DNA of 57,863 nucleotides from contig JANYAY010000085.1 of NCBI GenBank assembly GCA_025361065.1, positions 1 to 57,863 of the forward strand, in the 5' to 3' direction. The notes beneath the pieces are model-generated. The model saw only the letters and a list, made by a program, of their open reading frames with translations, had not been told where the DNA came from and made no database searches. A program made the translations under genes and the position numbers. How positions within the stretch are numbered: position 1 is the first letter of the stretch; each line of letters opens with the position of its first letter. Of this stretch, positions 28,408-53,949 are shown piece by piece. Source of the DNA: Deltaproteobacteria bacterium (GTDB lineage Bacteria > Desulfobacterota > Syntrophia > Syntrophales > Smithellaceae).

Positions 28408-28592
28408 TTTTTCCTCTCTTTCCTGATATATCATTTACGCCTGCGTGGAAGAGATCCCTCAGTTCACCATCATCAGACAGCACTGAGTTGTTCTCCAACT
28501 CCTTTATTCGCAGCGTTTCTGTGAAAAAAACCGTTATTGCGGAGCGCTGACATTGCTGCCGCAATACTCCCGCCTGTAATTTCCCTTTACAG

Positions 28593-29474: not shown

Positions 29475-29499
29475 GTTGTGTGCATCCTCCTCGACATCG

Positions 29500-29596
29500 A
29501 TTAACAACCTTGCAACAAGCTTACGAGACATGAAATGAACGTCATTATATCGCCGCAGTTGCGGAGAATTAACGCTCGTCCCGCTAAAGCGGGGTT
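29500..29596 (+). repeat. Repeat family 1, copy 2, abutting the livM stop codon
   Basis: The conserved block ATGAAATGAACGTCATTATAT and the third hairpin TCCCGCTAAAGCGGGG (29579-29594) are retained. Hairpin 1 is degenerate. The second hairpin has a different sequence that still pairs (CCGCAGTTGCGG). The element fills the livM-livH gap and its end touches the livM stop codon (29595-29597). Confidence 0.85.
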
Positions 29597-30575: not shown

Positions 30576-30640
30576 AGGAACTCACTCTCACTTTGCATAA
30601 AGGTATCAGCCCGGCCTCCGATGATGAGGCGCGATCCCGT

Positions 30641-33226: not shown

Positions 33227-33227
33227 T

Positions 33228-33980: not shown

Positions 33981-33995
33981 TTTCTTCAAATCACC

Positions 33996-36919: not shown

Positions 36920-38503
36920 TTACACTTTACGATCCTGACCCTTCCAGAAGGGTGCCCGGATCTTTTTCTTATCAATCTTTCCCAGATTCGTCAGAGGAAT
37001 CTCCTCCCAGAATTCGACACTCTTGGGTGCAACAAGACTCCCTTTTTTCGACTTCACAAAACCGATTAACTCCTCTGCCGTAGCGGTCTTTCCCGGGTAC
37101 AGGACAACAATGGCTTTTACGAGTTCACCCCATTTGTCATCCGGCACACCAATAACCGCCGCATTCTTTACCGCCGGGTGTTCATGAAGGGTATCCTCAA
37201 TCTCCCGGGGGAAGATGTTGAAGCCGCCGCTGACGATCATGTCTTTGGAACGATCCACGATATAGAGATACCCTTCTTCATCGAACTTGCCCACATCACC
37301 GGTCCACAAAAAGCCGTTCCGGATCGTTTCGGCCGTCTGCTCGGGATTCTTGAGATAGCCGGACATCATGTTGATCGTCCGGCAGACGATATCGCCGGAT
37401 TCTCCACAGGGAACTTCTTTGCCGTCTTCCCCGATAATGCGAACGTCGGCCGACATCACCGGTCTGCCGCAAGATGTGTAAATCTTCATCCGCTTTTCCG
37501 GATCGGCAATGACATGTTCCTGGCGCGACAGGGCACTGATCATCATGGGAGTCTCTGTCTGGCCGAAGAGCTGAGTGAATATCGGACCCAGAGTATCTAC
37601 CGCCTGCTTCAGGCGCGCCGGGGCAATCGCGGAAGCACCGTAAATTACATTGCGCAGGCTCGTAAGGTCGTATTTCTTGAGATCCGGATTGTCGAGAAGA
37701 GCATAGAGCATCGTGGGCACAATGAAGGTAGACGTGATCTTTACCTTCTCCACCCGTTGCAGAAAGACTTTCGGATCGAAATGGTCATGGATCTCGCAGA
37801 TACCCCGTTTCAGCAGAATCGGCAGAATCAAACAACCTCCTGCATGGGTCAACGGCGTGGCAAAGGCAAATACCTCATCCCAATCCAGACCGAGATGCAA
37901 CATCTCGCTGATGAATGTTCCCACCCAGGTATTCTGGGTCAGCATAACCCCTTTGGGAAGGCCCGTCGTACCGCCGGTATAAAAGATGCCGACCAGATCC
38001 TCGCAATCATGCTCGACCTTGGGGACTTCCGGTGGATTTTTGTCAACAAGACTTTGCAGATGTTCATGGCCGGCCGGAACCACAGCCGGATCTTTGGCCA
38101 CACAAATGAAATGCTTGACTGTCTCGAGTGCGGGAATCATCTCCTGCACCCGGGCAATCATTTTCTCATGATAGACCAGTACTTTGCACTCGGACTGGTT
38201 CATCATGTAAATGTGATCCTTGGAATTGAGCAGTACGGCCAGAGGTACACGAACCATCCCCAGCTTGCCCAGGGCGTACTCCGAGAAAATGTACTCCGGA
38301 CAGTTGGCCATAAGAAAACCCGCCCGATCGCCCTTCTTCAGCCCCATTGTATTCATGGCGTTCGCCAGCGAATAAGCCTTCTTCTGGAGGTCATCGTAGG
38401 TATATTTTTCATCGTTGAAAATAATAGCGGTATTCTGCCGGAAGGCTGCGACCGAGCGGTCATAAAGATCGGCACAGCTGATGCCGTGAAACATTGTGGT
38501 CAT
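36920..38503 (-). CDS. AMP-dependent acyl-CoA ligase
   Basis: About 527 residues, shorter than the FadD-type paralogues and closer to benzoate/cyclohexanecarboxylate or medium-chain ligases. Start MTTMFHG is chosen because AGGAGG lies 7 bases before it. Motifs are FYTGGTTGLPKGVMLT near residue 180, LFGQTETP near 325, FLWTGDVGKFDEEG near 405 and VDRSKDMIVSGGFNIFPREIE near 422. The sequence ends with the IRAPFWKG lysine region. It probably activates the acid that enters this pathway. The gap to the FadB-like gene is filled by a repeat family 3 element. Confidence 0.88.
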   Translation of the reverse strand: MTTMFHGISCADLYDRSVAAFRQNTAIIFNDEKYTYDDLQKKAYSLANAMNTMGLKKGDRAGFLMANCPEYIFSEYALGKLGMVRVPLAVLLNSKDHIYMMNQSECKVLVYHEKMIARVQEMIPALETVKHFICVAKDPAVVPAGHEHLQSLVDKNPPEVPKVEHDCEDLVGIFYTGGTTGLPKGVMLTQNTWVGTFISEMLHLGLDWDEVFAFATPLTHAGGCLILPILLKRGICEIHDHFDPKVFLQRVEKVKITSTFIVPTMLYALLDNPDLKKYDLTSLRNVIYGASAIAPARLKQAVDTLGPIFTQLFGQTETPMMISALSRQEHVIADPEKRMKIYTSCGRPVMSADVRIIGEDGKEVPCGESGDIVCRTINMMSGYLKNPEQTAETIRNGFLWTGDVGKFDEEGYLYIVDRSKDMIVSGGFNIFPREIEDTLHEHPAVKNAAVIGVPDDKWGELVKAIVVLYPGKTATAEELIGFVKSKKGSLVAPKSVEFWEEIPLTNLGKIDKKKIRAPFWKGQDRKV

Positions 38504-38585
38504 AATATTCCTCCTCTTCTCGCCGGTCATCCGGATCGTCCGTTTCTAAAAAAGCGGGCGTCCGGCGGCTGACGATTCAGTTATT

Positions 38586-38710
38586 ATACCAAGTCGCATT
38601 CTTTGCCTAACTTTGTTGGCTGCGTCGTCGGCTTCTTCAGCGTATGTATAATACGCTTCCGGCGCCGTCTCCTTGCCGCCGCGTTATGCTTTGAATGCAC
38701 CGTGGTATTA
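38586..38710 (+). repeat. Repeat family 3, copy A, MITE-like, ending in the fadB-like stop codon
   Basis: A 123-base element bounded by imperfect terminal inverted repeats (ATACCAAGTCGCATTC... and ...GGTAT) with conserved internal sequence CTAACTTTGTTGGC, GTCGTCGGCTTCTTCA and the small hairpin CGTATGTATAATACG. Its right end overlaps the TAA stop of the FadB-like gene (38708-38710). Copy B at 51178-51300 is the reverse complement. Confidence 0.85.
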
Positions 38711-40717
38711 TTTATAAAATTTCTTTCCATAGAGCTTCTCGCTCAAGCCGATAAGATCGGCCCATTTCATCGGACCACCCTTGTCGGAAGGAAAGCCGAT
38801 TCCCCAAATGGCGCCGATATCGATCGACCGGGGGTCGCTAACTACCTTCTTCTGCAAGAGCTCATATCCGGTTTGGACAAAGGGGGTGAAGAGCATTTCC
38901 TGCAGCTCGGCTGCGGAATACTCCTTTTGTTTATTGTCCGGGTTGATCAGGGGCAGAGCCTCCGGATCGGGGGCTCCTTCCTTTGTATAAAATCCCTTGC
39001 CGTTCTTGTTGCGTCCGTAACGGCCGGCCTTGTAAATATTTTCCAGAGCAGCAGGCGGCACCATTCCCAGAGATTTCGTCAGGACGAGATAAGAGACGTC
39101 GATCCCGACTTCATCGGTCAGGCGAATGGGTCCAACCGGCAGGCCGAACTTCATCATGGCGGCATCGATTTTTTCCATTGCCACACCTTCCGCCAGGAGT
39201 TCAAAGGATTTGATAAAGTAGGGGAAGAGCATCGCATTGACCACAAACCCGGGGTTGTCGTTGCAGACGACCGGGCGCTTGCCCAGGGCAGCACAAACCG
39301 CCAGCATGTTGTTCACTGCGTCGTCGCTGGTCGCTTTGCCCCGGATCACCTCCAGGAGCTCCATCATCCAGACCGGGGAAAAGAAGTGGGCGCCGATAAA
39401 ACGCTCCGGATTCAGGACGCTTCCCGCGAGCTTATCTACCGGCAGACTCGATGTATTCGTCGCCAGGAGGCAGTCTTTCGCCACAACCTGGCACAGTTCC
39501 TTGTAAACTTTATCCTTGATGGCGGGATCTTCGAAGACGGCCTCGATAACGACATCGACATCCTTAAAATCATCCGTCCATTCCGCCACCGGTTTCACCA
39601 GGGCCATAAGACTATCGACTGTGTCCTTCAGACGGTTCTTTGCCGCCATCCCTTCCAGAATCTTGCGCACGAATCCCATTCCCGGCTCCAGGGCCTCGGG
39701 AACATCTTTGACGATGACCGGAAGCTTGGTCCGGGTAATTATATTGATTATGATCCCGCGCCCCATCGTGCCGAATCCGAGAACACCGAATTTCCGGATG
39801 GGTTTGGGTTCGAAGCCTTTGGGAATCATTGCCTTCGGTTTGTCGGACATGGTTTTCAGGAAGAACGTGTTGATCGTCCCCTTGGATTCAGGAGCCTTCA
39901 GTGCTTCGATAAAACAATCAGTTTCGATCTTCAGACCTTGTTCAATCGGCACCTTCAAGCCTTCGCTCATGGCCTTGAGGGCCAGCATCGGTGCCGGAAT
40001 TGCCCTGCCCCGTGTAGCCTTCAGAACATTCTTCTTCGCCGCCTCCAGGGCGGCATCCAGAGCGGACAGGTCCGGTTTCGCCCGCTTTAATCCGGCCTTA
40101 CCGGCAATGATTTCCGCAAGCATTTCTTTTGCTTTCGCCAGCAGGTCGTCGCCCTCCGGAATGATCCGGTCGATCATGCCGGCTTCCAGGGCCTTAGCCG
40201 CGGGCAGGACAGCGCCGCGGGGAATAAAATCCAGGGCCGGATAGCCGATCAGCCGGGGAAGACGCTGCGTGCCTCCCGCACCGGGAATTACACCCACATT
40301 ACACTCGGGCAGACCGATAGTCGTCCGCTTGCTGTCCGTGGCAATCCGTGCCGTCATCGTCAGGGCAAATTCGTAACCGCCCCCCATGCAGGGGCCATTA
40401 ATGGCGGCGACCGTAGGAATCCCCAGATTCTCCAGCCGGACGAACATCGAGTTGAATTCATCACATCCCCGACGGAAGTCATTGAGATCTTTCTCCGCAC
40501 CCAACATGTTCAGATTGGCGCCGGCATGAAAATTCGATGCTTTACCGGAGATGAAGATCACTCCTTTATAGGCGCTTTTCTCTTTTTCCAAGAATGCCAG
40601 TGTAACGGCAAAATCCGCAATGGCTCCTTCCGTCCATGTATTCATCTGTTCGCCGGGTACATCAAACCGTACTACGGCTATACCATCCTGATTTTCACAG
40701 GCAAAAATCTGTCCCAT
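38708..40717 (-). CDS. Fused enoyl-CoA hydratase / 3-hydroxyacyl-CoA dehydrogenase (FadB/FadJ-like)
   Basis: About 669 residues; start MGQIFACEN chosen because GGGAGG precedes it. The N-terminal crotonase domain (about 1-190) has both catalytic glutamates, GGGYEFAL near residue 109 and GLPECNVG near 130. A linker leads to the dehydrogenase domain (about 300-660) with the NAD motif GFGTMGRGI near 312 and the catalytic region GAHFFSPVWMMELLEV near 430. It performs hydration and NAD-dependent oxidation in beta-oxidation. It is slightly shorter than typical FadB. The neighbouring thiolase-fold protein lacks the usual nucleophile, so the final cleavage step is not conventional here. Confidence 0.9.
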   Translation of the reverse strand: MGQIFACENQDGIAVVRFDVPGEQMNTWTEGAIADFAVTLAFLEKEKSAYKGVIFISGKASNFHAGANLNMLGAEKDLNDFRRGCDEFNSMFVRLENLGIPTVAAINGPCMGGGYEFALTMTARIATDSKRTTIGLPECNVGVIPGAGGTQRLPRLIGYPALDFIPRGAVLPAAKALEAGMIDRIIPEGDDLLAKAKEMLAEIIAGKAGLKRAKPDLSALDAALEAAKKNVLKATRGRAIPAPMLALKAMSEGLKVPIEQGLKIETDCFIEALKAPESKGTINTFFLKTMSDKPKAMIPKGFEPKPIRKFGVLGFGTMGRGIIINIITRTKLPVIVKDVPEALEPGMGFVRKILEGMAAKNRLKDTVDSLMALVKPVAEWTDDFKDVDVVIEAVFEDPAIKDKVYKELCQVVAKDCLLATNTSSLPVDKLAGSVLNPERFIGAHFFSPVWMMELLEVIRGKATSDDAVNNMLAVCAALGKRPVVCNDNPGFVVNAMLFPYFIKSFELLAEGVAMEKIDAAMMKFGLPVGPIRLTDEVGIDVSYLVLTKSLGMVPPAALENIYKAGRYGRNKNGKGFYTKEGAPDPEALPLINPDNKQKEYSAAELQEMLFTPFVQTGYELLQKKVVSDPRSIDIGAIWGIGFPSDKGGPMKWADLIGLSEKLYGKKFYK

Positions 40718-40743
40718 TGTTGATATCCTCCCTTTCTCGATTT

Positions 40744-41892
40744 TTACAGTCCGAACGTCTTGCAGATGATGTTCTTCTGGATCTGCGAAGTGCCGCCGCC
40801 GATGGAAAAAATAAGAATTTCTCTCAGGTTTCTCTGCATATCGCAATCCATCGAAGCGCCGCTGGCACCCAGGACGTTCATACCCTTCATGATAATGTGC
40901 TTGGCCGTTTCGGCGCAGAAGTACTTGGTCATCGAGGTTTCCCGCACCGGGTCCAATCCCTGAGCCTCTTTCCAGGCGGTACTGTAGGCCAGTACCTTCA
41001 TCGCCTCCAGTTCGGACGCCATCTCGGCGATGTCGTGCTGAATGGACTGCACATCCGTTGACGGACTAGTCCGCTGCATCTTCTCACGGGCGAACTTCAG
41101 AGCCTCATCGAACGAGGCCTGCGCCATCCCCAGTGTCATTGATGACAGAACGAGGCGCTCCTGGTTCAAAAGTTTCATCTCCTGCTTCCAGCCGTTATTG
41201 AGCCCCTTCTCTTCGCCGCCCAGAATGAAGCGCGGCAATACCCGGACGTTGTCATAGACTATTTCACAGGTATTGGAGCCGTGAAAGCCGAGCTTCTTGA
41301 TGCTTCTGGTGCTGAAACCTTCCAGGGACTTGTCAACGATAAACGACGTAATCCCATTGTATTTCGATTCGGCTGTCCGGGCGAAAGTCACCGCATAGGT
41401 CGAAACACCCGCACCGGTAATGAACATCTTGCCGCCATTAATCACATAATGCCCGTTATCGAAAAACGCCCGTGTTTTGATACTGGCGGCATCGGACCCG
41501 GCGTTCGGTTCCGTAATGGCAAAACTGAACATGATTTCGCCCCGGGCCAGTTTCGGCAGGAATTCATCCTTTTGTTCCTGATTACCGTTCACGCCGATAA
41601 TTTCATTGCCATACAAGAGGATGTTGCCCAGGTTCCAGCACAGCACCGGGAGTTTTTTCGCGACTTCCTCAAAGACGATCATCAGATCCATGATGTCGCC
41701 GCCCAGACCGCCGTAAGCCTCGGGTATATTGACTTTGGCCAGCCCCAGATCACAAAATTTCTTCACCAGGTCATGGGGAAATTCATCCTTTTCTTCAATT
41801 TCTCGGACCAAGGCCGGGGTAATATTGGTATCCACATATCCCCGCACCTTATCGCGCAATGCATTCTGTTTATCTGTAAAATTAAAATCCAC
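40744..41892 (-). CDS. Acyl-CoA dehydrogenase
   Basis: A 382-residue flavoprotein starting at GTG with GGGAGGAG about 8 bases upstream. Segments IPEAYGGLGG, FAITEPNAGSDA near residue 124 and the flavin/acyl region KMFITGAG are typical. The C-terminal YEGT motif is GGGTSQIQ, while Glu245 (in NQERLVLS) sits at the isovaleryl-CoA/long-chain dehydrogenase catalytic position. It probably works on branched or long acyl-CoA. It lies between the MaoC hydratase and FadB-like genes, in step order for beta-oxidation. Confidence 0.9.
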   Translation of the reverse strand: MDFNFTDKQNALRDKVRGYVDTNITPALVREIEEKDEFPHDLVKKFCDLGLAKVNIPEAYGGLGGDIMDLMIVFEEVAKKLPVLCWNLGNILLYGNEIIGVNGNQEQKDEFLPKLARGEIMFSFAITEPNAGSDAASIKTRAFFDNGHYVINGGKMFITGAGVSTYAVTFARTAESKYNGITSFIVDKSLEGFSTRSIKKLGFHGSNTCEIVYDNVRVLPRFILGGEEKGLNNGWKQEMKLLNQERLVLSSMTLGMAQASFDEALKFAREKMQRTSPSTDVQSIQHDIAEMASELEAMKVLAYSTAWKEAQGLDPVRETSMTKYFCAETAKHIIMKGMNVLGASGASMDCDMQRNLREILIFSIGGGTSQIQKNIICKTFGL

Positions 41893-41951: not shown

Positions 41952-42407
41952 TCAGGCGTTGGCAGCCTTCCGGTGCATGAGAAACTTCATATCGAGAACC
42001 ATGACGGCCTCGTCGCGCTGGTTCTTAATCGTATAGCGCCAAGTCTGCAATCCCTGCGACGGCTTACTCGTTTCCTTCCGCTCCACCACTTCCACATGGA
42101 CAGTAATCGTGTCCCCGAACTTGACCGGGGCCAGCATCCGCATTTTATCGGCGCCCATCCAGGCGATGATCGAGCTCCCCTCCACCTTCGCCAGACCAAC
42201 CATACCGACGGCCATGCCGAAAATCAAAGGACCATGGGCGATCCGTTCCTTGAAGACCGTCTTCGCACAATACTCAGCGTCCATATGCAGCGGGTAAAAA
42301 TCCATCGTCAGACCGGCCCAGTTCACCACGTGCGTTTCCGTTACCGTAATGGACAGCGTCTTGAAATTAAACCCGATATCAAAATCTTCGTAATATTTCT
42401 GTGTCAT
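41952..42407 (-). CDS. MaoC-like (R)-specific enoyl-CoA hydratase
   Basis: A 151-residue hot-dog-fold protein with the hydratase-2 motif MDFYPLHMD (Asp36, His41 as the catalytic pair) and RIAHGPLIFGMAVGM after it. Such proteins hydrate enoyl-CoA. In steroid side-chain degradation, MaoC (ChsH1) proteins act beside DUF35 (ChsH2) and thiolase-like aldolase (Ltp2) proteins, and the same three families are neighbours here. It lies 36 bases after the DUF35 gene and is probably cotranscribed. Confidence 0.87.
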   Translation of the reverse strand: MTQKYYEDFDIGFNFKTLSITVTETHVVNWAGLTMDFYPLHMDAEYCAKTVFKERIAHGPLIFGMAVGMVGLAKVEGSSIIAWMGADKMRMLAPVKFGDTITVHVEVVERKETSKPSQGLQTWRYTIKNQRDEAVMVLDMKFLMHRKAANA

Positions 42408-42443: not shown

Positions 42444-42863
42444 TTATTTGCTTACGGGACGGAACTTGGGAAGCTTAAACTCCTCATTGAGCGTCTCGAA
42501 CACCACCTCTACAGGCATGTCGCAACGCACATCCTGGGGCTTGCAACCAACTATATTGCTCAACATCTGAACACCTTCCGCCAGTTTCACCACCGCTACC
42601 ACATAAGGCAGGTCAACAATAAAAGCCGACGGGGGATTGCTCTCCACCACCGTGTAGGTATAAATGGTCGCTTTCCCCGACGCCTGAATCCACTCTATAT
42701 TGTCCGAAAAACAATTCGGACAGGCAATCCGCGGATAAAAAATATTCGTCCCACAGTCCTTGCAATGCTGAATCACCAGCTTATCTTCCCGGGCAGCATC
42801 CCAAAAGGGCTTCGCCCAGGGATTGACTACGGGAACCGGTTTTGGTTTTACGGGTGTATCCAT
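42444..42863 (-). CDS. DUF35 (OB-fold, zinc-ribbon) acyl-CoA-associated protein
   Basis: A 139-residue protein; start MDTPVKPKP chosen because AAAGGAGA lies 7 bases upstream and overlaps a weaker earlier ATG. It has a zinc ribbon CKDCGTNIFYPRIACPNC near residues 33-50 followed by an OB fold (GKATIYTYTVVE). DUF35 proteins bind thiolase-fold partners, as in Ltp2-ChsH2 and HMG-CoA synthase/thiolase complexes. Its gene sits 19 bases after the thiolase-fold gene, supporting such a complex here. Confidence 0.88.
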   Translation of the reverse strand: MDTPVKPKPVPVVNPWAKPFWDAAREDKLVIQHCKDCGTNIFYPRIACPNCFSDNIEWIQASGKATIYTYTVVESNPPSAFIVDLPYVVAVVKLAEGVQMLSNIVGCKPQDVRCDMPVEVVFETLNEEFKLPKFRPVSK

Positions 42864-42882
42864 CTTCGTATCTCCTTTCATC

Positions 42883-44067
42883 CTACGGAATCTCTGTTCC
42901 CAGAATTGTCACCTGGGCATCCATGTAGGTTCCTCCAACAGCCGTTTCCACGGCGAATTTAGCATTCTTTACCTGACGATCTCCGGCCTTGCCCATCAGC
43001 TGACGCACTGTCTCCACCATCAAAGCGCAGGCACCGCCCGCTCCCGTATGACCCTGGGAGAGCATCCCGCCATTGGTCGTCGTCGGCATCCTGCCTCCGG
43101 GCCACGTATCGCCCTTGAGGAACATCTCGCCGCCCTGACCACGCTCGGCAAAGCCCAGCTCTTCAAAGCCGATCATCTGATAGATAGGATAGGAATCATA
43201 AATCTCCGCAATATCCATGTCCTTAGGCGTAAGCCCCGCCATCTCGAACGCGGCCTTCCCCGCTCGCGCCCAGCCGAAACGTGACACATCCGACTCCTGG
43301 GAAAACACAAAGTGCGTCACCACACCTCCCTCGCCCAGCAGATACACCGGCTTCTCCGTAATAGCCCGGGCACGCTCCGCCGACGATATAATAAAGGCAC
43401 AGCCGCCGTCGAAGAGCATATTCGACATTTTCGCCCGCAGCGGCGTGGACAGCATTTTCGAGGCCATCACCTCTTCCAGCGTCAAAGGCTTCCGGAAAAA
43501 CGCATTCGGATTGAGTTCTGCCCATTTCCGGTTCGATACACAGACCGCCGCCATTTGCTCGTCCGTGCATCCAGTCTCATGCTTGTAACGCATTGTGGAC
43601 ATCGCCGCAATCGACGAATAGTGCTGGCCGAAAGGCACTTCCCACTCCGCAGAAATTCCCGCCTGGGCAAAAAGATCAATGCCGCCTTGAAGACTAACGC
43701 CCGTTCCCAGACGGTCGGCATGAACAAACAAAATCGTCGATGCCGCCCCACTGTTAATCAGGCTCGCCGCAATCTCCGTCGCGCAGGTACTGCTCGAACC
43801 ACCGGCGAATACCTGGCAGTTCTTCTTAACATTCTTCAGCCCCAGCTCTTCCACGATCCGGCAAGTCACCAGCTCCGTATTGAATGCCGGACTGAACAGT
43901 GCGGCACACGGCAGCACATAATCAATCTCATCCTTGTTTATCCCGGCATCACGTATCGCCAGCTTGGCGGATTCTATCGCATGATAGATCGCCGCCGTCT
44001 CCGGGAAGCGTCCCGTCGGCACCTCGCCGATTCCGATGAACGCCACTTTACCTTTCAATTTACTCAT
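42883..44067 (-). CDS. Thiolase-fold protein lacking the nucleophilic Cys (lipid-transfer/Ltp-like)
   Basis: About 394 residues; start MSKLKGK chosen for the AGGAGG 6 bases upstream. The fold is thiolase-like: the N-terminal half ends in the segment VFAGGSSSTCATEIAASLI, where a normal thiolase has its Cys just before GSG; here Ala88/Gly89 occupy that place. The C-terminal half has EIYDSYPIYQMIGFEELGF and GHTGAGGACALMVETVRQL. These features match non-decarboxylating Ltp-type proteins, some of which are retro-aldolases with DUF35 partners. The adjacent DUF35 and MaoC genes support that reading. Calling it acetyl-CoA acetyltransferase would be unsafe. Confidence 0.82.
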   Translation of the reverse strand: MSKLKGKVAFIGIGEVPTGRFPETAAIYHAIESAKLAIRDAGINKDEIDYVLPCAALFSPAFNTELVTCRIVEELGLKNVKKNCQVFAGGSSSTCATEIAASLINSGAASTILFVHADRLGTGVSLQGGIDLFAQAGISAEWEVPFGQHYSSIAAMSTMRYKHETGCTDEQMAAVCVSNRKWAELNPNAFFRKPLTLEEVMASKMLSTPLRAKMSNMLFDGGCAFIISSAERARAITEKPVYLLGEGGVVTHFVFSQESDVSRFGWARAGKAAFEMAGLTPKDMDIAEIYDSYPIYQMIGFEELGFAERGQGGEMFLKGDTWPGGRMPTTTNGGMLSQGHTGAGGACALMVETVRQLMGKAGDRQVKNAKFAVETAVGGTYMDAQVTILGTEIP

Positions 44068-44086
44068 GGTTGACCTCCTTACATGA

Positions 44087-44995
44087 TCACAATTCGTCTG
44101 ACACCACCGTGCCCGGCAGCCGCCGGCACGTTTCGCAATATTCATTTACCATTTCAGCGACAATTTGTGCCGCCGGTTTTATGTCTCGCACCTGGGCCAC
44201 GCTCTGCCCGGCACTCCAAAAATCAAGCCACTTTTTCGACGTCAGCGGCGGCCTCTCCTCCATATCCGCGATACTTGCGGCGATCCAGTTCGCCGGATTT
44301 CCCGTTACCCGGTTCGTACAAACGATGCCATCGGGATCAGTATCGATAAGGGCCTGTTTGTAGGCCGCGGAAGCACGGGATTCCGGTGTGGCGACAAGTC
44401 GCGTCCCCACGATAACCGCACAGGCGCCGCAGGCAATGGCTGCGGCCATCTGCGCTCCGGTACTGATTCCACCGGCCGCGACTACGGGCAGTCCGACCTT
44501 CTCTCGGAGATAGGGTACGAGGATAAGCGTTGAAACACGGCCGCCATGTCCCCCGGCGCCTGCCCCTACAGCCACCAACCCATCCACACCTCCCTCACGG
44601 GCCTTGAGCCCCTGGGCCAGGGAAACTACATCAGCAAATACCAATCCCCCGCGGGCATGGACGGCATCCAGAATCAGACGGGGATCCCCCAGAGATGTAA
44701 TGAAAAATTTGACACCGTGATCGAGACAGATGGCTAGTTGTTCCTGCCAGGGAAATTTTCCGGAGAGATGAATATTGACACCCACCGGCGCCTCCGTTTG
44801 GGAACGGATGATCTCCATGGCCTGCCGCAGCTGTTCCGTCGTGCGGTAATTCGGCAGGGGAAGCATCCCCAACCCTCCGGCATTACAGACGGCGACCACC
44901 AGTTCTTCATATGATACCAGAAACATGGGCGCCCCGATGATCGGATAACGAATTCCCATTATGGCAGTGAATTCTGTTGAAATCATGGGCACCAT
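44087..44995 (-). CDS. Nitronate monooxygenase family flavoprotein
   Basis: A 302-residue FMN TIM-barrel protein of the 2-nitropropane dioxygenase family. The N-terminal region IMGIRYPIIGAPMF, the FMN-binding GAGAGGHGGR near residue 157 and the phosphate-binding region VVAAGGISTGAQMAAAIACGACAVIVGTRLV near 188 are clear. In anaerobe beta-oxidation clusters these proteins may act as enoyl-CoA reductases or other flavin enzymes rather than on nitronates; that is only an inference. AAAGGA precedes the ATG. Confidence 0.85.
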   Translation of the reverse strand: MVPMISTEFTAIMGIRYPIIGAPMFLVSYEELVVAVCNAGGLGMLPLPNYRTTEQLRQAMEIIRSQTEAPVGVNIHLSGKFPWQEQLAICLDHGVKFFITSLGDPRLILDAVHARGGLVFADVVSLAQGLKAREGGVDGLVAVGAGAGGHGGRVSTLILVPYLREKVGLPVVAAGGISTGAQMAAAIACGACAVIVGTRLVATPESRASAAYKQALIDTDPDGIVCTNRVTGNPANWIAASIADMEERPPLTSKKWLDFWSAGQSVAQVRDIKPAAQIVAEMVNEYCETCRRLPGTVVSDEL

Positions 44996-45101: not shown

Positions 45102-46544
45102 TTATTTGATACCAGCCATTCCCTCAGCAAGCTTCTTGCAGCGGGCGATGGTCTTTCTTGCTTCCATCAGAATGGTCATTCTTTCCGCAAAAGGAGAACC
45201 CTCGCCGTGGAGGCAAATCGTTTCCAGGTCGCCGGCGGTCAGACGGCGAATCAGATCAAACATTCTCAATCTATTCTCCGTCGGAACTTTTGCACTGCCC
45301 TGGAGGTACTTCTTGATGTCCTCGTGTGTTTCGGGGTTCATCCAGTCTCTGTAGGTCGGGGCGGTCACCAGGAGCCCACCGGCAAGATCCTGAATGATCT
45401 CGCAAATCTTGTGGTAATTGTGGGCAAAATGGTATTTCGCGATATTCGTTGTAATGGGATTAGGAACGGGAATGCCGGCATGATCCACGAAATCCAGACA
45501 GGCCGACCTCGACAGTGCAGTGAGCGTCTCGAGATAGATCACGATCTCCGTGATCTTTTCCTTGACGTGGGGGGCGTCGGCAATGCCGTTATACTCGGCA
45601 ATAGCCTGAGCAATTCCCAGTAATTGTTCGCTCATGGGTATGCGATAGGCACAACCCGTCCGGCGATGCATGAGGGCGAAATTGTAAACCATCGTCGCCG
45701 CAAACTTCCACTCGCCACACAGGAACACTCTGTCCCACGGTACAAAGACATCATCGAAAATAATGAGAGAGTCCGTGTGCATCATTCTCAACGGACTGTC
45801 CAGGGGGAACTCGTCATCACTGATCCGGCCATTGAAGGGACGGACAATCTGCCGGACACCCTTGGCATTGGCCTGGATGGCAAAGGCAACAGCGTAGGGA
45901 GCCTCCTCAGGAGAACTCATGGCCTTGCAGGGAATAACGAAGAATTCATTACAGTAGGCGGCTCCGGTAATATGAACCTTGGCGCCCCGGACGATAATCC
46001 CTTTGTCATCTTTGCTGACCAGGCGCACTTGGAAGTCGGGATTCGCCTGCCCCGGGTCGGAAGGCTTAAGGTGCCGGTCGCCTTTGGCATCAGTAACTCC
46101 CGCCACGACGCATTTATCCGTCTTCTTTAAGTATTTTCTGTATTTTTCAATACGTTCCGCATACACCTTGCCGGCATCGCCCATGGTCCTGGCCGTAATG
46201 GCAATGGCGTTCATAGCATCGGCGCCGATATCATGGGCCAGAGGAATGTATCCTTGCCCCAGTTCCGTTGCCTTGATGATCAGCTCCAGGTGCTTCAACA
46301 GATCCTGACCGTTCTTAGGGATATGGTTGTACCTGCTGATATTTTCCTGGAGTTCCTCATCGAAAACCAGCGCCAGATCCTTGTACTGCGGATCGTGGGC
46401 CATTTCATAATCCACGGCCACCGTATTGACGCAGGCAGCCAGGTGGGGATGGTCGCAAACATTATCGATCTTCTTGCCCTTGTAGTAGACGATCCTGCCG
46501 TCGTTTAAACTCTCTCTATATTGATCTGCTGTCATTAAGCCCAT
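45102..46544 (-). CDS. HpaB / 4-hydroxybutyryl-CoA dehydratase family flavoprotein without the Fe-S cysteines
   Basis: A 480-residue protein of the 4-hydroxyphenylacetate 3-hydroxylase / AbfD family. Shared segments are DAKGDRHLKPSDPGQ near residue 152, GIIVRGAKVHITGA near 183, FDDVFVPWDRVFLCGE near 263 and the end ARKTIARCKKLAEGMAGIK. The dehydratase needs four cluster ligands. His293 is kept and a Cys (298) lies nearby, but the region equivalent to the CxxxC pair reads IPLAHDIGADAMN, with Pro101 and Asp105 in place of the cysteines. An FAD-only acyl-CoA dehydrogenase-like activity is more likely. AGGAGG is 11 bases from the ATG. Confidence 0.82.
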   Translation of the reverse strand: MGLMTADQYRESLNDGRIVYYKGKKIDNVCDHPHLAACVNTVAVDYEMAHDPQYKDLALVFDEELQENISRYNHIPKNGQDLLKHLELIIKATELGQGYIPLAHDIGADAMNAIAITARTMGDAGKVYAERIEKYRKYLKKTDKCVVAGVTDAKGDRHLKPSDPGQANPDFQVRLVSKDDKGIIVRGAKVHITGAAYCNEFFVIPCKAMSSPEEAPYAVAFAIQANAKGVRQIVRPFNGRISDDEFPLDSPLRMMHTDSLIIFDDVFVPWDRVFLCGEWKFAATMVYNFALMHRRTGCAYRIPMSEQLLGIAQAIAEYNGIADAPHVKEKITEIVIYLETLTALSRSACLDFVDHAGIPVPNPITTNIAKYHFAHNYHKICEIIQDLAGGLLVTAPTYRDWMNPETHEDIKKYLQGSAKVPTENRLRMFDLIRRLTAGDLETICLHGEGSPFAERMTILMEARKTIARCKKLAEGMAGIK

Positions 46545-46673: not shown

Positions 46674-47438
46674 TTAGATGGATCCGCCGCCGTCCGCAAC
46701 CAGAATCTGTCCCGTCATGTAAGCCGATGCATCCGAAGCGAGGAATAAGGCAATACGACCCATTTCTACCGGCTCGGCAACACGTTTAATCGGCATATGA
46801 GCCATTTCCACCTTCATCAGCTCTTCGTTGCTCCAGAGAGCCTTGCTGAATTTAGTCCTTGTCACGCCCGGGGCGATGCAGTTCACGCGTACATTGAATT
46901 CGCCCATTTCTTTGGCCATGGCGCGGGTCAGCATGCCGATGCCGGCCTTACTGATGCAATACAATCCCAGACCTTTATCCGGACTTACACCGCCGACAGA
47001 AGAGACATTAACTATATTGCCGCTCTTCTGCTCGCGCATAATCTTACCCACCAGCTGGCTCATAATGGTATAACCCTTGAGGTTAGTGACCATGATCTGG
47101 TCGTACATTTTCTCGTCCATATCAATGAGGTATCCCATGCCGGGATTGGTGGCCGCATTATTCACCAGAATGTCAATCCGCCCGAATTCTTTGATGATAG
47201 CGTCAACTCCGTTCTTCACACTGTCTATTTCCCGGTTGTGCATAGGTACGGCAAGGGCCCTACGTCCCATGGCCCTGATTTTCACAGCAACCTTTTCCAG
47301 ATCTTCCAGTTTACGGCTACAAATAGCCACATCGGCTCCCGCATCAGCAAAAACCAATGCTATAGCCTCACCAATACCCCGGCTGCCCCCGGTAACAACG
47401 GCAACTTTCCCTTCCAATGACAAATATGATGTATCCAT
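46674..47438 (-). CDS. Short-chain dehydrogenase/reductase, first gene of the proximal block
   Basis: A 254-residue SDR with TGGSRGIG near residue 16, NNAATNPG near 91, SSVGG and the catalytic YCISK (YxxxK). Its N-terminus has the acidic-residue pattern of NAD-dependent 3-hydroxyacyl or alcohol dehydrogenases. AAGGAG lies 8 bases before the ATG. It is the first gene downstream of the sigma-54 promoter at 47497-47513, and HpaB-like, NMO and thiolase-like genes follow on the same strand. Confidence 0.88.
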   Translation of the reverse strand: MDTSYLSLEGKVAVVTGGSRGIGEAIALVFADAGADVAICSRKLEDLEKVAVKIRAMGRRALAVPMHNREIDSVKNGVDAIIKEFGRIDILVNNAATNPGMGYLIDMDEKMYDQIMVTNLKGYTIMSQLVGKIMREQKSGNIVNVSSVGGVSPDKGLGLYCISKAGIGMLTRAMAKEMGEFNVRVNCIAPGVTRTKFSKALWSNEELMKVEMAHMPIKRVAEPVEMGRIALFLASDASAYMTGQILVADGGGSI

Positions 47439-47814: not shown

Positions 47815-49029
47815 CTACTCCTGCGGCGTCTTAGGCGCCTTAATGGAATCGACAATGACAAAACGCTTGGTCTTTCCGTCAGCCTTGAGGATCAGGCTGG
47901 AAAAACTGCTCACATGCTGCTTGGGTCCAAAGGTGATGTTCGGACAAAGTCCACCCATATCAAAATTCCGGACGCTTTCCAGTCCTTTCACCAGGGTCTC
48001 GGGATTCAGATCCTTACCGGCCTTGCGGAGTCCCTGGGCCATGGCCTCGATGTATCCCCAACCGGCCAGATACAGATAGTCCGGATACGCTGGGTTTTCC
48101 AGGGTCTTGGCCGCATTGCCGTACTTCTTGTTAATCTCTTTGATGCGTTTAATCCCCGGCAGATCAGTGTTCACCGGCGCATAAGGCGTAACAAACATAT
48201 AGCCGTCGGCCGCCTCACCGGTCAAGGCAAAGAGCGGCGGGACGCCTGTGGTATTGTTCGATATCAGCTGAACATCCCAACCCATCTTCACCTTCTGCTT
48301 GATGATGGCGGCTGACTGGGGCAGGTAAGTCCAAAGCATGATAGTGTCCACGTTGGCTTCCTTCATGGCGTTCATATGCGGTGTGAAATCGATGGTACCG
48401 GTCTTGTAAGGGGCCTGTGCAACAAGCTTCGTCTTCAGGAACGCGGCTGCAGCGCTTGCTCCCTCGAGGCCTTCCCTGCCGAAATCATCATCCTGATAGA
48501 TGACTCCGATCCGCGCCTTAGCGTTCTTTCCCAGAACATACTCAACCGCCCGGGAAGCCATGCTGAACTGGACCGTATGGGGCACAAAAACCCATTTATT
48601 GCCGGGATGATAGAATACCTTGTTGGCCCCGTGGGGCATGAGGACGACCTTGTTCTCGGCACACAGGGGCACGATGGCGCTGGAACCGGCACTGCCCAGA
48701 TTGAAGGCGATGGCCAGGACCTCGTCTTTGAGGATCACTTTCTTGGCCGCATTCATCGTCGTAGTGGGAAGAATACCATTATCCTCGACCACCAGATTGA
48801 TTTTTCTGCCGTTAATTCCGCCGGTATCATTGACCCAGGCCACATAATCCCTGAAAGCATCGGCAATGGGCGGCCCGCCGTATTTCCCCGGTCCCGAGAG
48901 ATCAACGAGACAAGCGAGCTTGATTTCTTTATCTGTAACGCCACGCACGGTTGCCGCCCAGGCACTGTTCACCGACAGGAACAAGACAACCGCCAATAAT
49001 ACACTCCATCCCCACAATTTGCTTCTCAT
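47815..49029 (-). CDS. LIV-type ABC transporter substrate-binding protein
   Basis: About 404 residues; start MRSKLWGW chosen because AGGAGG lies 6 bases upstream. A cleavable signal peptide covers about residues 1-26 (VNSAWAAT). The periplasmic binding fold follows (IKLACLVDLSGPGKYGG, NGRKINLVVEDNG). It serves the distal LIV transporter. It is related to but well diverged from the 33996-35189 protein, so the two importers probably differ in ligand. It is the last gene of its cluster, the opposite end from livK in the proximal cluster. Confidence 0.87.
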   Translation of the reverse strand: MRSKLWGWSVLLAVVLFLSVNSAWAATVRGVTDKEIKLACLVDLSGPGKYGGPPIADAFRDYVAWVNDTGGINGRKINLVVEDNGILPTTTMNAAKKVILKDEVLAIAFNLGSAGSSAIVPLCAENKVVLMPHGANKVFYHPGNKWVFVPHTVQFSMASRAVEYVLGKNAKARIGVIYQDDDFGREGLEGASAAAAFLKTKLVAQAPYKTGTIDFTPHMNAMKEANVDTIMLWTYLPQSAAIIKQKVKMGWDVQLISNNTTGVPPLFALTGEAADGYMFVTPYAPVNTDLPGIKRIKEINKKYGNAAKTLENPAYPDYLYLAGWGYIEAMAQGLRKAGKDLNPETLVKGLESVRNFDMGGLCPNITFGPKQHVSSFSSLILKADGKTKRFVIVDSIKAPKTPQE

Positions 49030-49191
49030 CTCTTTCCTCCTTGTCATTAATGTAATCAACAACACTTTGCCATCAATCCTCCCGCAGCGATCGACAGCCC
49101 ATTTTAAATCCTGCTGCTGGAAATATTACTCCTTCGATTGCCGGTCCGTTCCCGATTCCCCGGATCAGCAAAGAGCATTTATACAATAGGC

Positions 49192-50226
49192 TTAATACTT
49201 AAAGGGCCAGGTCTTCCAGTAAACTTTTATCCGCCGATAGATGCCGACAAGCCCCTGAGGTTCGAACAGAAGCGTCAGGACAATGACCAGACCGAAGATG
49301 CCGAGCTTTAAATCCACGATCAAGCCGCTGAGATTGGGATACGTACCCCGCAGCGCGTCAGTCAGGTAAACAATGCCGTAGGGGATGCCGGTAATCAGAA
49401 TGGCACCCAGGATAGAGCCCAGAATGGTGCCCATTCCTCCGAGAACGATCATCGCAATATAGGCGATAGACAAGGAAATGTCAAAATTTCCGGGTACGAT
49501 CCATTTCTGGTAATACGCCAGCAGGCATCCCGCCACGCCGGCATAGAAGGCACTGACGGCAAACGCCATTATTTTGTATTTGCTCAGCGAAATCCCCATA
49601 GCTTCCGCCGCGATGTCACGATCGCGGATGGCTACAAAAGAACGGCCAATTTTCGTCCGGGCAAGATTCTTGGCGACGAGTGTTGCAAGGGCCGCAAAAA
49701 ACATGATCAGATAAAAGAACTGCAGTTCCGTTTCAATAAAAAAGCCGCCGGCTCCGATCTTGGGAACAGCCATGCCCGTATCTCCCCTGGTAAGGTCCCA
49801 GTGAAAGAGGACGTACTCGATAATGAAACCAAAGGCCAATGTCCCGAGAGCCAGATACAGGCCTTTCAGCCGCAGAGAGGGAACGCCCACGATCAGGCTC
49901 AACAAGGCTGCAGTTGTGCCGGAAACAGGCAGGGCAACGATAAAAGGGACTCCCAGCGTTCCCGCCAGCAGGCCCGTCGTGTAAGCCCCGATGGCCACGA
50001 AGGCCCCATGCCCCAAGGAAATCTGCCCCGTATAACCTATCAGGAGATTGAGACCCAGGGCGCCGATCACGGCAATACCCATTCCGTTGAGGATACTTAA
50101 TTGATAGCGGGACAGTAGAAAAGGCAGCACAATCATCGCCGCGATAAAAATTCCCAGCCATGACTTGACCCAGAGATTCTGGAAAAGCGCTGTATCTTCC
50201 CGGTAACTGATCTTGAAGTTCGCCAT
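49192..50226 (-). CDS. LIV-type ABC transporter permease (LivM-like)
   Basis: A 344-residue polytopic permease with NLLIGYTGQISLGHGAF near residue 60, VPSLRLKGLYLALGTLAFG near 115 and FVAIRDRDIAAEAMGISL near 195. It ends TLLFEPQGLVGIYRRIK, typical of LivM. It lies 8 bases after livH, so the permeases are cotranscribed. It differs from the proximal LivM mainly in the N-terminal third. Confidence 0.88.
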   Translation of the reverse strand: MANFKISYREDTALFQNLWVKSWLGIFIAAMIVLPFLLSRYQLSILNGMGIAVIGALGLNLLIGYTGQISLGHGAFVAIGAYTTGLLAGTLGVPFIVALPVSGTTAALLSLIVGVPSLRLKGLYLALGTLAFGFIIEYVLFHWDLTRGDTGMAVPKIGAGGFFIETELQFFYLIMFFAALATLVAKNLARTKIGRSFVAIRDRDIAAEAMGISLSKYKIMAFAVSAFYAGVAGCLLAYYQKWIVPGNFDISLSIAYIAMIVLGGMGTILGSILGAILITGIPYGIVYLTDALRGTYPNLSGLIVDLKLGIFGLVIVLTLLFEPQGLVGIYRRIKVYWKTWPFKY

Positions 50227-50234
50227 AAACTTTT

Positions 50235-51134
50235 CTATACCCTTTCCACTTTTTCCTTCCCGAAAATCCCGTAAGGCCGGATCATCAGAACGATGATCAT
50301 AATCACAAAGGCGGCCACGTCCTTGATATCACCCATATGAAAATTTCCCAATTCCATACCGCTCAGATAATTAGCCGCCAACCCTTCGACAACGCCGATA
50401 ATGATGCCGCCCAGAATGGCCCCGCTGATGCTTTCCATTCCCCCGAGAATCGCCGCAGCCATGGCCTTGATCCCCACATGGCTCATCGAAAGGCGGACAA
50501 AGCTCTGCTCCGCGAGGAACATGCCCGCCACCGCCGCTACCAGTCCTCCCAATGCCCAGGCCACCATGTGAATTTTCTTCACGTTGATGCCCATGAGTCC
50601 CGCCGTATCCGGATCTTCCGCCGAACCCCGCATGGAGATTCCCAACAGAGAGCGGTTAAAAAACAAGATGACAATGACAAACAGGACGACAGAGACAATA
50701 ATCGTGGAGATCGAACCCTGGGCAAAGGTAATTTTATCCAGGTGAATAACCTTATCCGTAAAAGGAGAATTGAGCGAGTAAACATCATGCCCCCAGATAA
50801 GCCCCGCAAGACACGTCAGGATACTGGCGAGCCCTACGGTGACCATGATCGTGGAAAACAGGGGTTCACCCACCATGGTCCTGAAGAAGACCTGGTAAAC
50901 GACCGCACCCAGAATGATGCCGCCGATCAGAGCGATAAAGAAGGCATAAATATAAGGAACGTTCATCATGGTGGCAAAGCTGTAACAGATAAAGGCGCCC
51001 ACCATAGCTAACTCTCCCTGGGCAAAGTTAATCACGCCTGTCGATTTGAAGATGAGCACAAAACCAAGGGCCATCAGGGCGTAAATCGCCCCCATGGACA
51101 AACCATTAAACAGAATCTCGATAATCTTTTCCAT
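50235..51134 (-). CDS. LIV-type ABC transporter permease (LivH-like)
   Basis: A 299-residue permease with LivH landmarks GLSMGAIYALMALGFVLIFKSTGVINFAQGE at the start and AAAILGGMESISGAILGGIIIG near 225. GAGAGGG lies about 10 bases before the ATG. It forms the membrane channel with LivM. The 165-base gap to the upstream fadD gene holds repeat family 3 copy B. Confidence 0.88.
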   Translation of the reverse strand: MEKIIEILFNGLSMGAIYALMALGFVLIFKSTGVINFAQGELAMVGAFICYSFATMMNVPYIYAFFIALIGGIILGAVVYQVFFRTMVGEPLFSTIMVTVGLASILTCLAGLIWGHDVYSLNSPFTDKVIHLDKITFAQGSISTIIVSVVLFVIVILFFNRSLLGISMRGSAEDPDTAGLMGINVKKIHMVAWALGGLVAAVAGMFLAEQSFVRLSMSHVGIKAMAAAILGGMESISGAILGGIIIGVVEGLAANYLSGMELGNFHMGDIKDVAAFVIMIIVLMIRPYGIFGKEKVERV

Positions 51135-51177
51135 TATATCAACACCCTCTCTGAATTTTCCTCCCGGCAGGACTCTT

Positions 51178-51300
51178 ATACCATTTCGATTTCAAAGGAT
51201 AACGCGGCGGCAAGAAGGAGGCGCCGGAGACGTATTGTACATACGTTGAAGAAGCCGACGACGATGCCAACAAAGTTAGCCACAGAAAGCGAATTGGTAT
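51178..51300 (-). repeat. Repeat family 3, copy B, ending at the fadD stop codon
   Basis: This 123-base element is the reverse complement of copy A. Its terminal inverted repeats are clearer (ATACCAATTCGCTTTC at one end, ATACCATTTCGATTTC at the other). The outer end touches the TAA stop (51300-51302) of the fadD gene, as copy A does at the fadB-like gene. TA at both ends would suit an IS630/Tc1-type insertion. Confidence 0.85.
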
Positions 51301-53111
51301 TAGCGACCGCCGTACATTTCCGCTATCTCCTTAACAAACCGCTTCTCAATGGTCTTGCGTTTTACTTTCTGCGTGGCGGTCAATTCCTCATCATCCTGGT
51401 CGAGCTCCTTCTCCAGAATTTTGAACTTCTTGACGCTTTCTACATTGGCCAGGCCTTCATTCGCCACGTCAATCTCCTGCTTAATCAGTTCCTTGACTTT
51501 TGGATTTTCCGCCAGACTCCGATAGGTCGTGTAAGCAATTTTGTTCTTCTGCGCCCAGTTCCCCACGTTTTCGTAATCGATCTGAATCAGCGCACTAATA
51601 TACTTTCGGCGGTCACCAATGGCAATCGCCTCTTTTATATACATACTGCATTTAAGCTTGTTTTCAATTTCTGAAGGAGAGATATTCTTCCCTCCGGAAG
51701 TGATGATGATATCCTTCTTACGATCAACGATGTAGAGGTGATTGTCCTCATCGAGCTGGCCCACATCTCCCGTACAATACCAGCCGTCACGGACTACCTC
51801 ACATGTGGCCTCGGGGTCCCGGTAATAACCGACAAAGATGGAATCCCCCTTAACATGGATTTCTCCATCCTCGGCCAGTCGAAATTCCAACCCTTGGCAA
51901 GGCTCTCCCACGGATCCATGTTTGATTTTCTTATGGGGCCCGGAAATCGTTCCGGACGTTTCCGTGGCTCCATACATCTCCACGGTCCGCACACCGAGCG
52001 AGCGGAAAAATGTCAGGACCTCCGGGGCAATAGGCGCCCCGCCGCTCATGAGACAACGGCAGTTGAGCATCCCGACCTTGTCCCGGACGGCCCGGAAACT
52101 CCAGAGATAACCCAAAGCATAAAGCAAACGCCACTGTAAAGGAACCTTTTCGTTGTTCATTCGGTAGCTCGATACCCGCAGGCCCACGGGCTGCCAGAAA
52201 TTATACATGAATTTCTTAAAACGCGTCGTGTCTTCCATCTTGATTAGTACGCCGGAGTGCAGTTTTTCCAAAATGCGCGGAACGGCGGCAAAAAACGAGG
52301 GGCGAATCTCCTGGATGTTCTGCTGAACCGTCTCGATCGATTCGGCAAAACTTACCGTATAGCCGAAAACCAGCGGCATGCTCATGGTAAGGCTTCTCTC
52401 GAGTATATGGCATAGCGGCAAATAGGAGACCAGTGTATCACGATCCGTAAATTGCAATACCGGCTGCAGCGCATATACAGCCTGATGAATGACATTCCGA
52501 TGGGAAAGCATGGCGCCTTTGGGATGTCCCGTTGTCCCGGACGTATAGACTATAAAAGCCACATCTTCCGCCTGGCCCTGTGCAACAAGACGGGTAAAAG
52601 CCGCCGGGTCTTTCCGGAGGGCTTCCCTGCCTAAAGCTTCTACATCCTTATAACTAATGATCAGAGGTTCATTGTAGTTGCGTAATCCTTTTATGTCGAT
52701 AACGATGATCTTTTGCAACAGAGGCAATTCTGCTTTAACTGCCAGAACCTTATCGGCCTGTTCCTGGTCCTTGACAACAACAAACCGCGATTCGGAGTGA
52801 TCAAGAATATATTTCACCTGTTGGGCCGAATTTGTGGGATAAATACCGACTGCCACCCCCCCCAGACTCTGGATTCCCAAGTCGGCAAAAAGCCATTCCG
52901 GGCAGTTCTCACCCAAAATCGAGGCCTGGTCTCCTTTTTTCATGCCCAGATCCGTAAGACCCAGGCAGAATTCACGAACCTTTCCCAAGTACATATTCCA
53001 AGAGATTTCCTGCCAGATGCCTTTGAACTTTTCCCGCATGGCAACCCGGTCCTGATAAAGCTCCGTTTTTTCCAGCAGAAGCTTCGGCAATGTCGTATTT
53101 ACCCTCTCCAT
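51300..53111 (-). CDS. Acyl-CoA synthetase (AMP-forming) embedded in the distal liv cluster
   Basis: About 603 residues. I chose ATG at 53111 (MERVNTTL) because it aligns with the start of the 30641-32452 paralogue and has a GGGAG about 9 bases upstream. An in-frame ATG at 53171 overlaps livG and would add 20 residues. Motifs are YTSGTTGHPKGAMLSH, EMYGATETSG, WYCTGDVGQLDEDN and DRKKDIIITSGGKNISPSE. It sits between livG and livH, mirroring the fadD inside the other liv operon. Confidence 0.9.
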   Translation of the reverse strand: MERVNTTLPKLLLEKTELYQDRVAMREKFKGIWQEISWNMYLGKVREFCLGLTDLGMKKGDQASILGENCPEWLFADLGIQSLGGVAVGIYPTNSAQQVKYILDHSESRFVVVKDQEQADKVLAVKAELPLLQKIIVIDIKGLRNYNEPLIISYKDVEALGREALRKDPAAFTRLVAQGQAEDVAFIVYTSGTTGHPKGAMLSHRNVIHQAVYALQPVLQFTDRDTLVSYLPLCHILERSLTMSMPLVFGYTVSFAESIETVQQNIQEIRPSFFAAVPRILEKLHSGVLIKMEDTTRFKKFMYNFWQPVGLRVSSYRMNNEKVPLQWRLLYALGYLWSFRAVRDKVGMLNCRCLMSGGAPIAPEVLTFFRSLGVRTVEMYGATETSGTISGPHKKIKHGSVGEPCQGLEFRLAEDGEIHVKGDSIFVGYYRDPEATCEVVRDGWYCTGDVGQLDEDNHLYIVDRKKDIIITSGGKNISPSEIENKLKCSMYIKEAIAIGDRRKYISALIQIDYENVGNWAQKNKIAYTTYRSLAENPKVKELIKQEIDVANEGLANVESVKKFKILEKELDQDDEELTATQKVKRKTIEKRFVKEIAEMYGGR

Positions 53112-53160
53112 GAATGTTGCTCCCCCCTCCCGCTGATCATCTTTAATAATCGCTTGGCCA

Positions 53161-53949
53161 TCAGTGCTCATCTCCCAGGTAGGCCTTGACCACTTCCGGA
53201 TTCGAACTTACTTCTCCGGGTGTACCTTCAGCGATTTTGGTGCCGAAATTAAGAACGGTAACCCGATCGGACAGATCCATGACCAGCCCCATGTCGTGCT
53301 CGATCAACACAACCGTTATATCCATTTCTTCATTGATATCAATTATATACCTCGCCATATCTTCCCGCTCTTCCAGATTCATTCCGCTGACGGGTTCGTC
53401 AACCAGCAGGATCTTCGGTTTCATGGCCAGAGCCCGCGCGAGTTCCACCCGTTTCTGGAGTCCGTAGGACAGGCTGCTCACGGGAGACTTCCGCACAGAC
53501 TGCAAATCAAGAAACTCAATCACATCTTCCACGGCATCGCGGTTTTGCACCTCCTCCCGCTGGCATGCGCCAAGGTACAGGGCTGCCCCTAAAAGTCCGT
53601 ACTTCATGAGATGGACCCGTGCGGACATCAGATTATCCAGAACGGTCATTCCCTTGAAAAGGGCTATGTTCTGAAAAGCCCGGGCCACACCCATTTGCGC
53701 AATCCGGTCCGGCTTTACCCCGAGCAACTCCCGATTTTCAAACCGGATGCTGCCCTGTTGAGCCTTGTAGATACCGCTGATACAATTGAAGATGGTTGTC
53801 TTGCCGGCCCCGTTCGGCCCGATGATCGAATAGATTTCCCCTGATTGCACACCGATGGAAACATTCCGAATGGCCTTAATTCCACCGAAGCTCATGGAAA
53901 GATCTTTTATCTCCAGTTGAAGCGATTTGTCCTGATTCATGACAGCCAT
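53161..53949 (-). CDS. LIV-type ABC transporter ATP-binding protein (LivG-like)
   Basis: A 262-residue ATPase with GPNGAGKTTIFNCISG near residue 42, RAFQNIALFKGMTVLDNLM near 92, the degenerate signature SYGLQKRVELARALA near 160 and Walker B ILLVDEPVSGM near 178. The start may be MAVMNQ (53949) or MNQDKS (53940); the latter overlaps the livF stop as ATGA. It pairs with LivF to drive the distal transporter. Confidence 0.88.
   Translation of the reverse strand: MAVMNQDKSLQLEIKDLSMSFGGIKAIRNVSIGVQSGEIYSIIGPNGAGKTTIFNCISGIYKAQQGSIRFENRELLGVKPDRIAQMGVARAFQNIALFKGMTVLDNLMSARVHLMKYGLLGAALYLGACQREEVQNRDAVEDVIEFLDLQSVRKSPVSSLSYGLQKRVELARALAMKPKILLVDEPVSGMNLEEREDMARYIIDINEEMDITVVLIEHDMGLVMDLSDRVTVLNFGTKIAEGTPGEVSSNPEVVKAYLGDEH

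Follow-up and report, generated by a model that had tools for sequence, protein, structure and literature searches.

A probable flavin enzyme related to 4-hydroxybutyryl-CoA dehydratase that lacks the iron–sulfur ligands

Genomic context

The gene at positions 45102–46544 of the window (the whole 57,863-nucleotide stretch of DNA analysed here) lies in a beta-oxidation-like gene cluster (Table 1). Read on the plus strand, the interval contains four stops; translation places the coding frame on the minus strand. Compared with its relative in locus L036, 140 of the codon differences are synonymous and 28 are non-synonymous, which indicates that the reading frame has been kept by selection.

Table 1 Features of the window around the gene at 45102–46544
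Feature	Position	Strand	Basis
AMP-forming acyl-CoA ligase	36920..38530	-	
FadJ-like enoyl-CoA hydratase/3-hydroxyacyl-CoA dehydrogenase	38708..40846	-	
Acyl-CoA dehydrogenase, GGGT in place of the YEGT Glu	40744..41892	-	
MaoC-type hydratase	41952..42407	-	
DUF35 protein (ChsH2-like Zn ribbon + OB), probably the partner of the thiolase	42444..42881	-	
SCP-x type thiolase	42883..44145	-	
Nitronate monooxygenase/FabK-like flavoprotein	44087..44995	-	
AbfD/HpaB-like cluster-free flavoprotein, 480 amino acids	45102..46544	-	Pfam HpaB_N + HpaB; AF2 model; VIA
Residues 446–450, HGEGS: Glu448 at the putative acyl-CoA dehydrogenase base position, where the cluster clade has Ala or Gly	45195..45209	-	Alignments; VIA end points
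Residues 293–300, HRRTGCAY: His kept; AbfD Cys299 replaced by Tyr300, AbfD Tyr296 by Gly297	45645..45668	-	Alignment
Residues 100–112, IPLAHDIGADAMN, site of the AbfD CxxxC ligand pair	46209..46247	-	Alignment
SDR dehydrogenase	46674..47438	-	Pfam; synteny
Periplasmic binding protein, branched-chain-type ABC importer	47815..49065	-	
ABC importer permease	49192..50226	-	
ABC importer permease	50235..51134	-	
Long-chain-type acyl-CoA ligase	51300..53171	-	
ABC importer ATPase	53161..53949	-	
ABC importer ATPase	53937..54731	-	

At an identity of at least 64%, we recognized 14 core loci: the window, L036–L046, L171 and L173 (L172 is taken to be the same contig as L040). They come from Deltaproteobacteria/Thermodesulfobacteriota bins, one SAR324, one Spirochaetes and one unassigned source, and otherwise from the phylum of the window. 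The SDR gene is adjacent in 11 of the 14 and one gene away in two (L039 and L040); the contig of the remaining locus, L042, stops some 250 bases past the gene. More distant members (L047–L049 from Dehalococcoidia, and L174–L177) occur without the full gene cluster, and a Rhodococcus plasmid carries a relative between acyl-CoA synthetase and acyl-CoA dehydrogenase (ACAD) genes that is likewise devoid of the iron–sulfur ligands (hereafter, cluster-free). The matches of the SDR, thiolase and ligase proteins name no substrate, and the neighbouring genes, in the window as in the other loci, are generic beta-oxidation genes. No flavin reductase domain was found by Pfam among 30 window proteins scanned, including the product of the gene itself.

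Other parts of the window and of the related loci are also of interest. Both window ACADs (40744–41892 and 35689–36831) have GGGT, not YEGT, and by eye show a Glu where isovaleryl-CoA dehydrogenase has its base. Positions 26605–35189 and 47815–54731 form parallel modules, each with an acyl-CoA ligase and a branched-chain-type ABC importer. A sigma-54 activator of 1044 amino acids with TPR and GAF domains is encoded at 23400–26534, and L042 and L044 have a homologue of it (67–68%) close to their orthologue of the 45102–46544 gene. Chemotaxis receptor signalling domains occur in two similar proteins encoded side by side (20069–21448 and 21748–23130), beside catabolic genes. Nine of the 14 core loci contain a phytoene-desaturase/amine-oxidase-like flavoprotein (L041, 12068–13696; L044, 3593–5176) that is absent from the gene cluster of the window, and a 52% homologue is found on another contig of the same genome (L157). 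An HMG-CoA-synthase-like protein is encoded near the orthologue in L038, L039, L040 and L177; in L040 (9535–10986) it has a C-terminal OB domain and lies beside a second thiolase.

Sequence family and predicted fold

The protein matches Pfam HpaB_N (1.4e-78) and HpaB (1.9e-54) over nearly its full length. Its closest solved relative by sequence is the 4-hydroxybutyryl-CoA dehydratase (AbfD) of C. aminobutyricum (1u8v, E 5.7e-70), followed by the N. maritimus enzyme (6vjr, 2.2e-65) and then by HpaB-type monooxygenases, in agreement with the first-pass annotation of the gene as an AbfD homologue. Acyl-CoA_dh_M, the sole Pfam ACAD domain to appear, scored 20.4 bits, under its cut-off of 33.3. Two NCBIfam HpaB models scored 205.4 and 112.1 bits, below their respective cut-offs of 480.2 and 885.2, and in an NCBIfam scan of 37 proteins (29 cluster-free and 8 with ligands) matches were to these two models only.

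An AlphaFold2 model built from a 37-sequence alignment has a mean pLDDT of 93.6. In Foldseek and VIA, the structures nearest to this predicted model are 1u8v and 6vjr (Z 45.1 for both), and it matches the AbfD fold with an rmsd of 2.3 over 471 aligned residues; with the same model as query, VIA gave Z 37–41 for HpaB-type structures and Z 22–24 for ACAD-type structures.

The genome of the window contains four further HpaB-domain genes (L001, L002, L003 and L005). L001 is a canonical AbfD that has the complete set of four ligands, L002 and L003 also have all four ligand positions, and L005 is a partial frame that covers the His/Cys part only. The sole annotated cluster-free relative that we encountered is labelled as a 4-hydroxyphenylacetate 3-hydroxylase domain protein, and the literature searched, a library short of most subscription journals, yielded no characterised cluster-free member.

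Residues at the iron–sulfur site

We read the correspondence of ligands from a 158-sequence alignment, in which Cys99, Cys103, His292 and Cys299 of AbfD align with Pro101, Asp105, His293 and Tyr300. A two-residue insertion could move the register at AbfD Cys99 by one. The cysteines of the protein are at residues 30, 38, 145, 198, 206, 276, 298, 349, 381, 444 and 469; because residues 39–144 hold none, no CxxxC pair can be present there in any register. The first-pass annotation had pointed to His293 and to a Cys298 at an unusual spacing, and both were numbered correctly: His293 aligns with AbfD His292, and Cys298 is at H+5, compared with H+7 for the AbfD cysteine, and 15 of the 21 members of the subclade share it. 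Sequence alignment with AbfD puts cysteines at none of the three cluster positions. The same annotation described the ligands as lost; their absence (Pro101, Asp105 and Tyr300) is borne out, whereas loss as the history finds no support in the trees described below.

Tyr296 and Glu455 of AbfD have been proposed to generate the flavin radical and are needed for radical chemistry; the roles of the AbfD residues reportedly come from a 2004 structure paper and a 2015 mutagenesis paper. In the alignment, Tyr296 is replaced by Gly297 and Glu455 by Ile443; the dehydratase clade itself keeps them in only 56 and 49 of its 68 rows, respectively. We regard the product of the gene as a probable flavin enzyme that is related to the iron–sulfur dehydratase and lacks its iron–sulfur ligands.

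A glutamate at the putative acyl-CoA dehydrogenase base position

In ACADs, the Glu of the YEGT motif is the catalytic base. All 82 cluster-free rows that cover the corresponding position (the 83rd is truncated) have a Glu in the motif H-x-E-G-(S/G), compared with none of the 68 rows of the cluster clade, which have Ala (56) or Gly (12); Glu448 of the protein corresponds to Ala460 of AbfD. We aligned the profiles with hhalign at three settings to 13 ACADs selected for their motif; one of these, L041 at 861, lacks an ACAD-like end. Glu448-Gly449-Ser450 paired with the ACAD EGT motif at two of the three settings, the end being unaligned at the strictest, and Ala460 of AbfD fell on the same ACAD Glu at all three. 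An earlier run in global mode with a mixed set of 15 ACADs misaligned the C terminus of the cluster-free profile. His293-Arg294 paired with an ACAD Ala-Arg at all three settings; as the pair aligned with it, MCAD has Thr255-Arg256 and isovaleryl-CoA dehydrogenase has Glu254-Arg255.

The structure alignments point to the same column. VIA yields only the first and last aligned residues, and counting back from the last assumes that the final 16–21 residues are free of gaps; on that basis, Glu448 falls on what we take to be the catalytic Glu of five MCAD chains (3mdd, 4p13, 1t9g, 1udy and 8sgp), three SCAD chains (1jqi, 8sgs and 2vig) and 1buc, and on E363 of 4l1f (a number counted from an alignment). 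Thirteen of the 29 ACAD-type VIA rows shown were checked: ten fit, representing about four kinds of enzyme, and three (5lnx, off by one, 4iv6 and 4u83) do not on their printed numbers, for which tag offsets may be responsible. Glu448 thus appears to sit in the ACAD base column, as judged from profile alignments and structure-alignment end points rather than a residue-level superposition. Given the pairings of His293-Arg294 and Glu448, both places that hold the base in ACADs would be filled here, by Glu448 and His293, whereas AbfD has Ala at the first of them and a cluster ligand at the second.

Phylogeny of the cluster-free proteins

Relatives were collected from the genome of the window, 149 genomes of its genus, family or order, 297 genomes of its phylum and a named genome collection, and outgroups from plasmid records. 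This sample comprises high-scoring matches, mainly from one phylum, and is not random; duplicates, three short sequences and one with unknown residues were left out before counting. The 151 ingroup rows divide into 68 with the CxxxC pair and 83 without it, the latter including the gene studied here. By our own count, 66 of the 68 have all four ligands, and in the other two the spacing of the last Cys is shifted. The seven outgroup rows have no CxxxC pair.

A FastTree phylogeny of the 158 rows, rooted on HpaB-type proteins, recovers the 68 pair-bearing rows as one clade and the 83 cluster-free rows as its sister (0.965). In an IQ-TREE analysis of 42 rows from which the ligand and motif columns had been removed, the cluster clade is again recovered (100/99, and in 200 of 200 bootstrap trees), and the cluster-free rows form a grade around it with moderate support (92/90 and 94/89); constraining them to one clade is not rejected (p 0.173). 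Placing the cluster-free rows together with four AbfD-like members of the 16 cluster rows is rejected by the AU test (p=3e-5); this loss topology represents one choice of rows, picked after the first tree was seen. The gene falls outside the cluster clade in both trees and in the topology test, and a single state change explains the tree. Because the outgroups also lack the CxxxC pair, the simplest history is one in which the dehydratase clade gained the cluster, and the trees fit this better than loss. The gene belongs to a broad, unnamed group of cluster-free bacterial proteins in which the cluster may never have been present. We suggest tentatively, and with some doubt, that cluster-free, ACAD-like acyl-CoA flavoenzymes were ancestral to the radical [4Fe-4S]/FAD dehydratases, which would have arisen through one cluster gain and loss of the catalytic Glu.

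One subclade of 18 cluster-free rows (L052, L025, L027 and 15 similar sequences) keeps Cys103 in the absence of Cys99, and 17 of the 18 also have a Cys at His+6. These residues could reflect a differently ligated cluster, a remnant or convergence.

Proposed function

We propose, with about even confidence, that the protein is an FAD-only, ACAD-like oxidoreductase of the HpaB/AbfD branch that acts on an acyl-CoA in a beta-oxidation-like catabolic pathway. As in ACADs, Glu448 would remove the alpha proton from the acyl-CoA and the flavin would accept the beta hydride; His293, which is invariant, would be another residue placed at the substrate, and electrons would leave via ETF. FAD binding, the CoA substrate, the direction of the reaction and the ETF partner are what we infer. 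The apparent place of Glu448 in the ACAD base column and the neighbouring genes for acyl-CoA ligases, an ACAD, MaoC, SDR, thiolase and FadJ-like proteins favour this reading, and the two ordinary ACADs already in the window and the Pfam ACAD middle domain under its cut-off count against it. Eight ETF-domain matches in the genome make ETF-linked oxidation possible. Of the activities offered by the first-pass annotation, an FAD-only enzyme is probable, ACAD-like chemistry is plausible and a hydroxylase is unlikely.

A catalytic Glu alone does not tell a dehydrogenase from an isomerase or a lyase. The main rival, which we consider unlikely although it deserves weight, is a redox-neutral FAD enzyme, either an acyl-CoA double-bond isomerase or a gamma-eliminating lyase, in which Glu448 and His293 would serve as acid and base and the flavin would transiently relay an electron or a hydride. 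AbfD also isomerises vinylacetyl-CoA, all 83 cluster-free sequences retain His293 and the window is already supplied with ordinary ACADs. Moreover, BbuA, an ACAD-type protein with a putative flavin, performs a redox-neutral elimination of trimethylamine at C4 (PMC8364193). The replacement of AbfD Tyr296 and Glu455 argues against a redox-neutral role.

A degenerate 4-hydroxybutyryl-CoA dehydratase that has lost its cluster, as the first-pass wording implied, seems improbable. Such dehydratases are the two nearest solved structures, and Cys103 and the H+6 Cys in the subclade described above are possible remnants; however, one loss-type topology is rejected by the AU test, one state change is sufficient for the tree, every bootstrap tree has a branch that separates the cluster clade from the other rows and a canonical AbfD is retained in the genome. 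A conserved Glu at AbfD position 460 is not what decay leaves, and the gene belongs to a cluster-free lineage with this Glu as its own, for which gain is the better fit. Least probable is a two-component flavin hydroxylase of the HpaB kind: Pfam and NCBIfam give HpaB-like labels and HpaB-type structures are close to the model, but scores far under both NCBIfam cut-offs and the absence of a flavin reductase domain among the 30 scanned window proteins make it unlikely, and the gene context is one of acyl-CoA genes.

Comparison with known systems

4-Hydroxybutyryl-CoA dehydratase has a role in two autotrophic cycles and in GABA fermentation (PMC7078158). Similarity to AbfD alone would falsely point to a 4-hydroxybutyrate pathway here, which makes this family an annotation trap. 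For the origin of the unusual cluster/flavin radical site of the dehydratase, a sister lineage that is cluster-free and has an ACAD-type base would offer a concrete evolutionary path, and it would also supply an enzyme for comparison.

The protein resembles the dehydratase in its full-length fold (32% and 31% identity to 1u8v and 6vjr) and keeps AbfD His292-Arg293 and Thr190, but differs in lacking the Cys ligands and in having Gly for Tyr296, Ile for Glu455 and Glu448 for Ala460. With MCAD, SCAD and butyryl-CoA dehydrogenase it appears to share the Glu at the EG(T/S) base position, and its His293 presumably stands where isovaleryl-CoA dehydrogenase has its Glu; unlike ACADs, to which it is 11–18% identical in the VIA rows, it is longer and has HpaB-type Pfam domains. 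The oxygenase components of HpaB-type monooxygenases are alike in fold and in the absence of the CxxxC pair, and unlike it in model scores, acyl-CoA context and the lack of a reductase gene among the 30 proteins scanned. BbuA, a gamma-butyrobetainyl-CoA TMA-lyase that is about 10% identical to AbfD, would be comparable as an anaerobic acyl-CoA flavoenzyme of the ACAD fold (PMC8364193).
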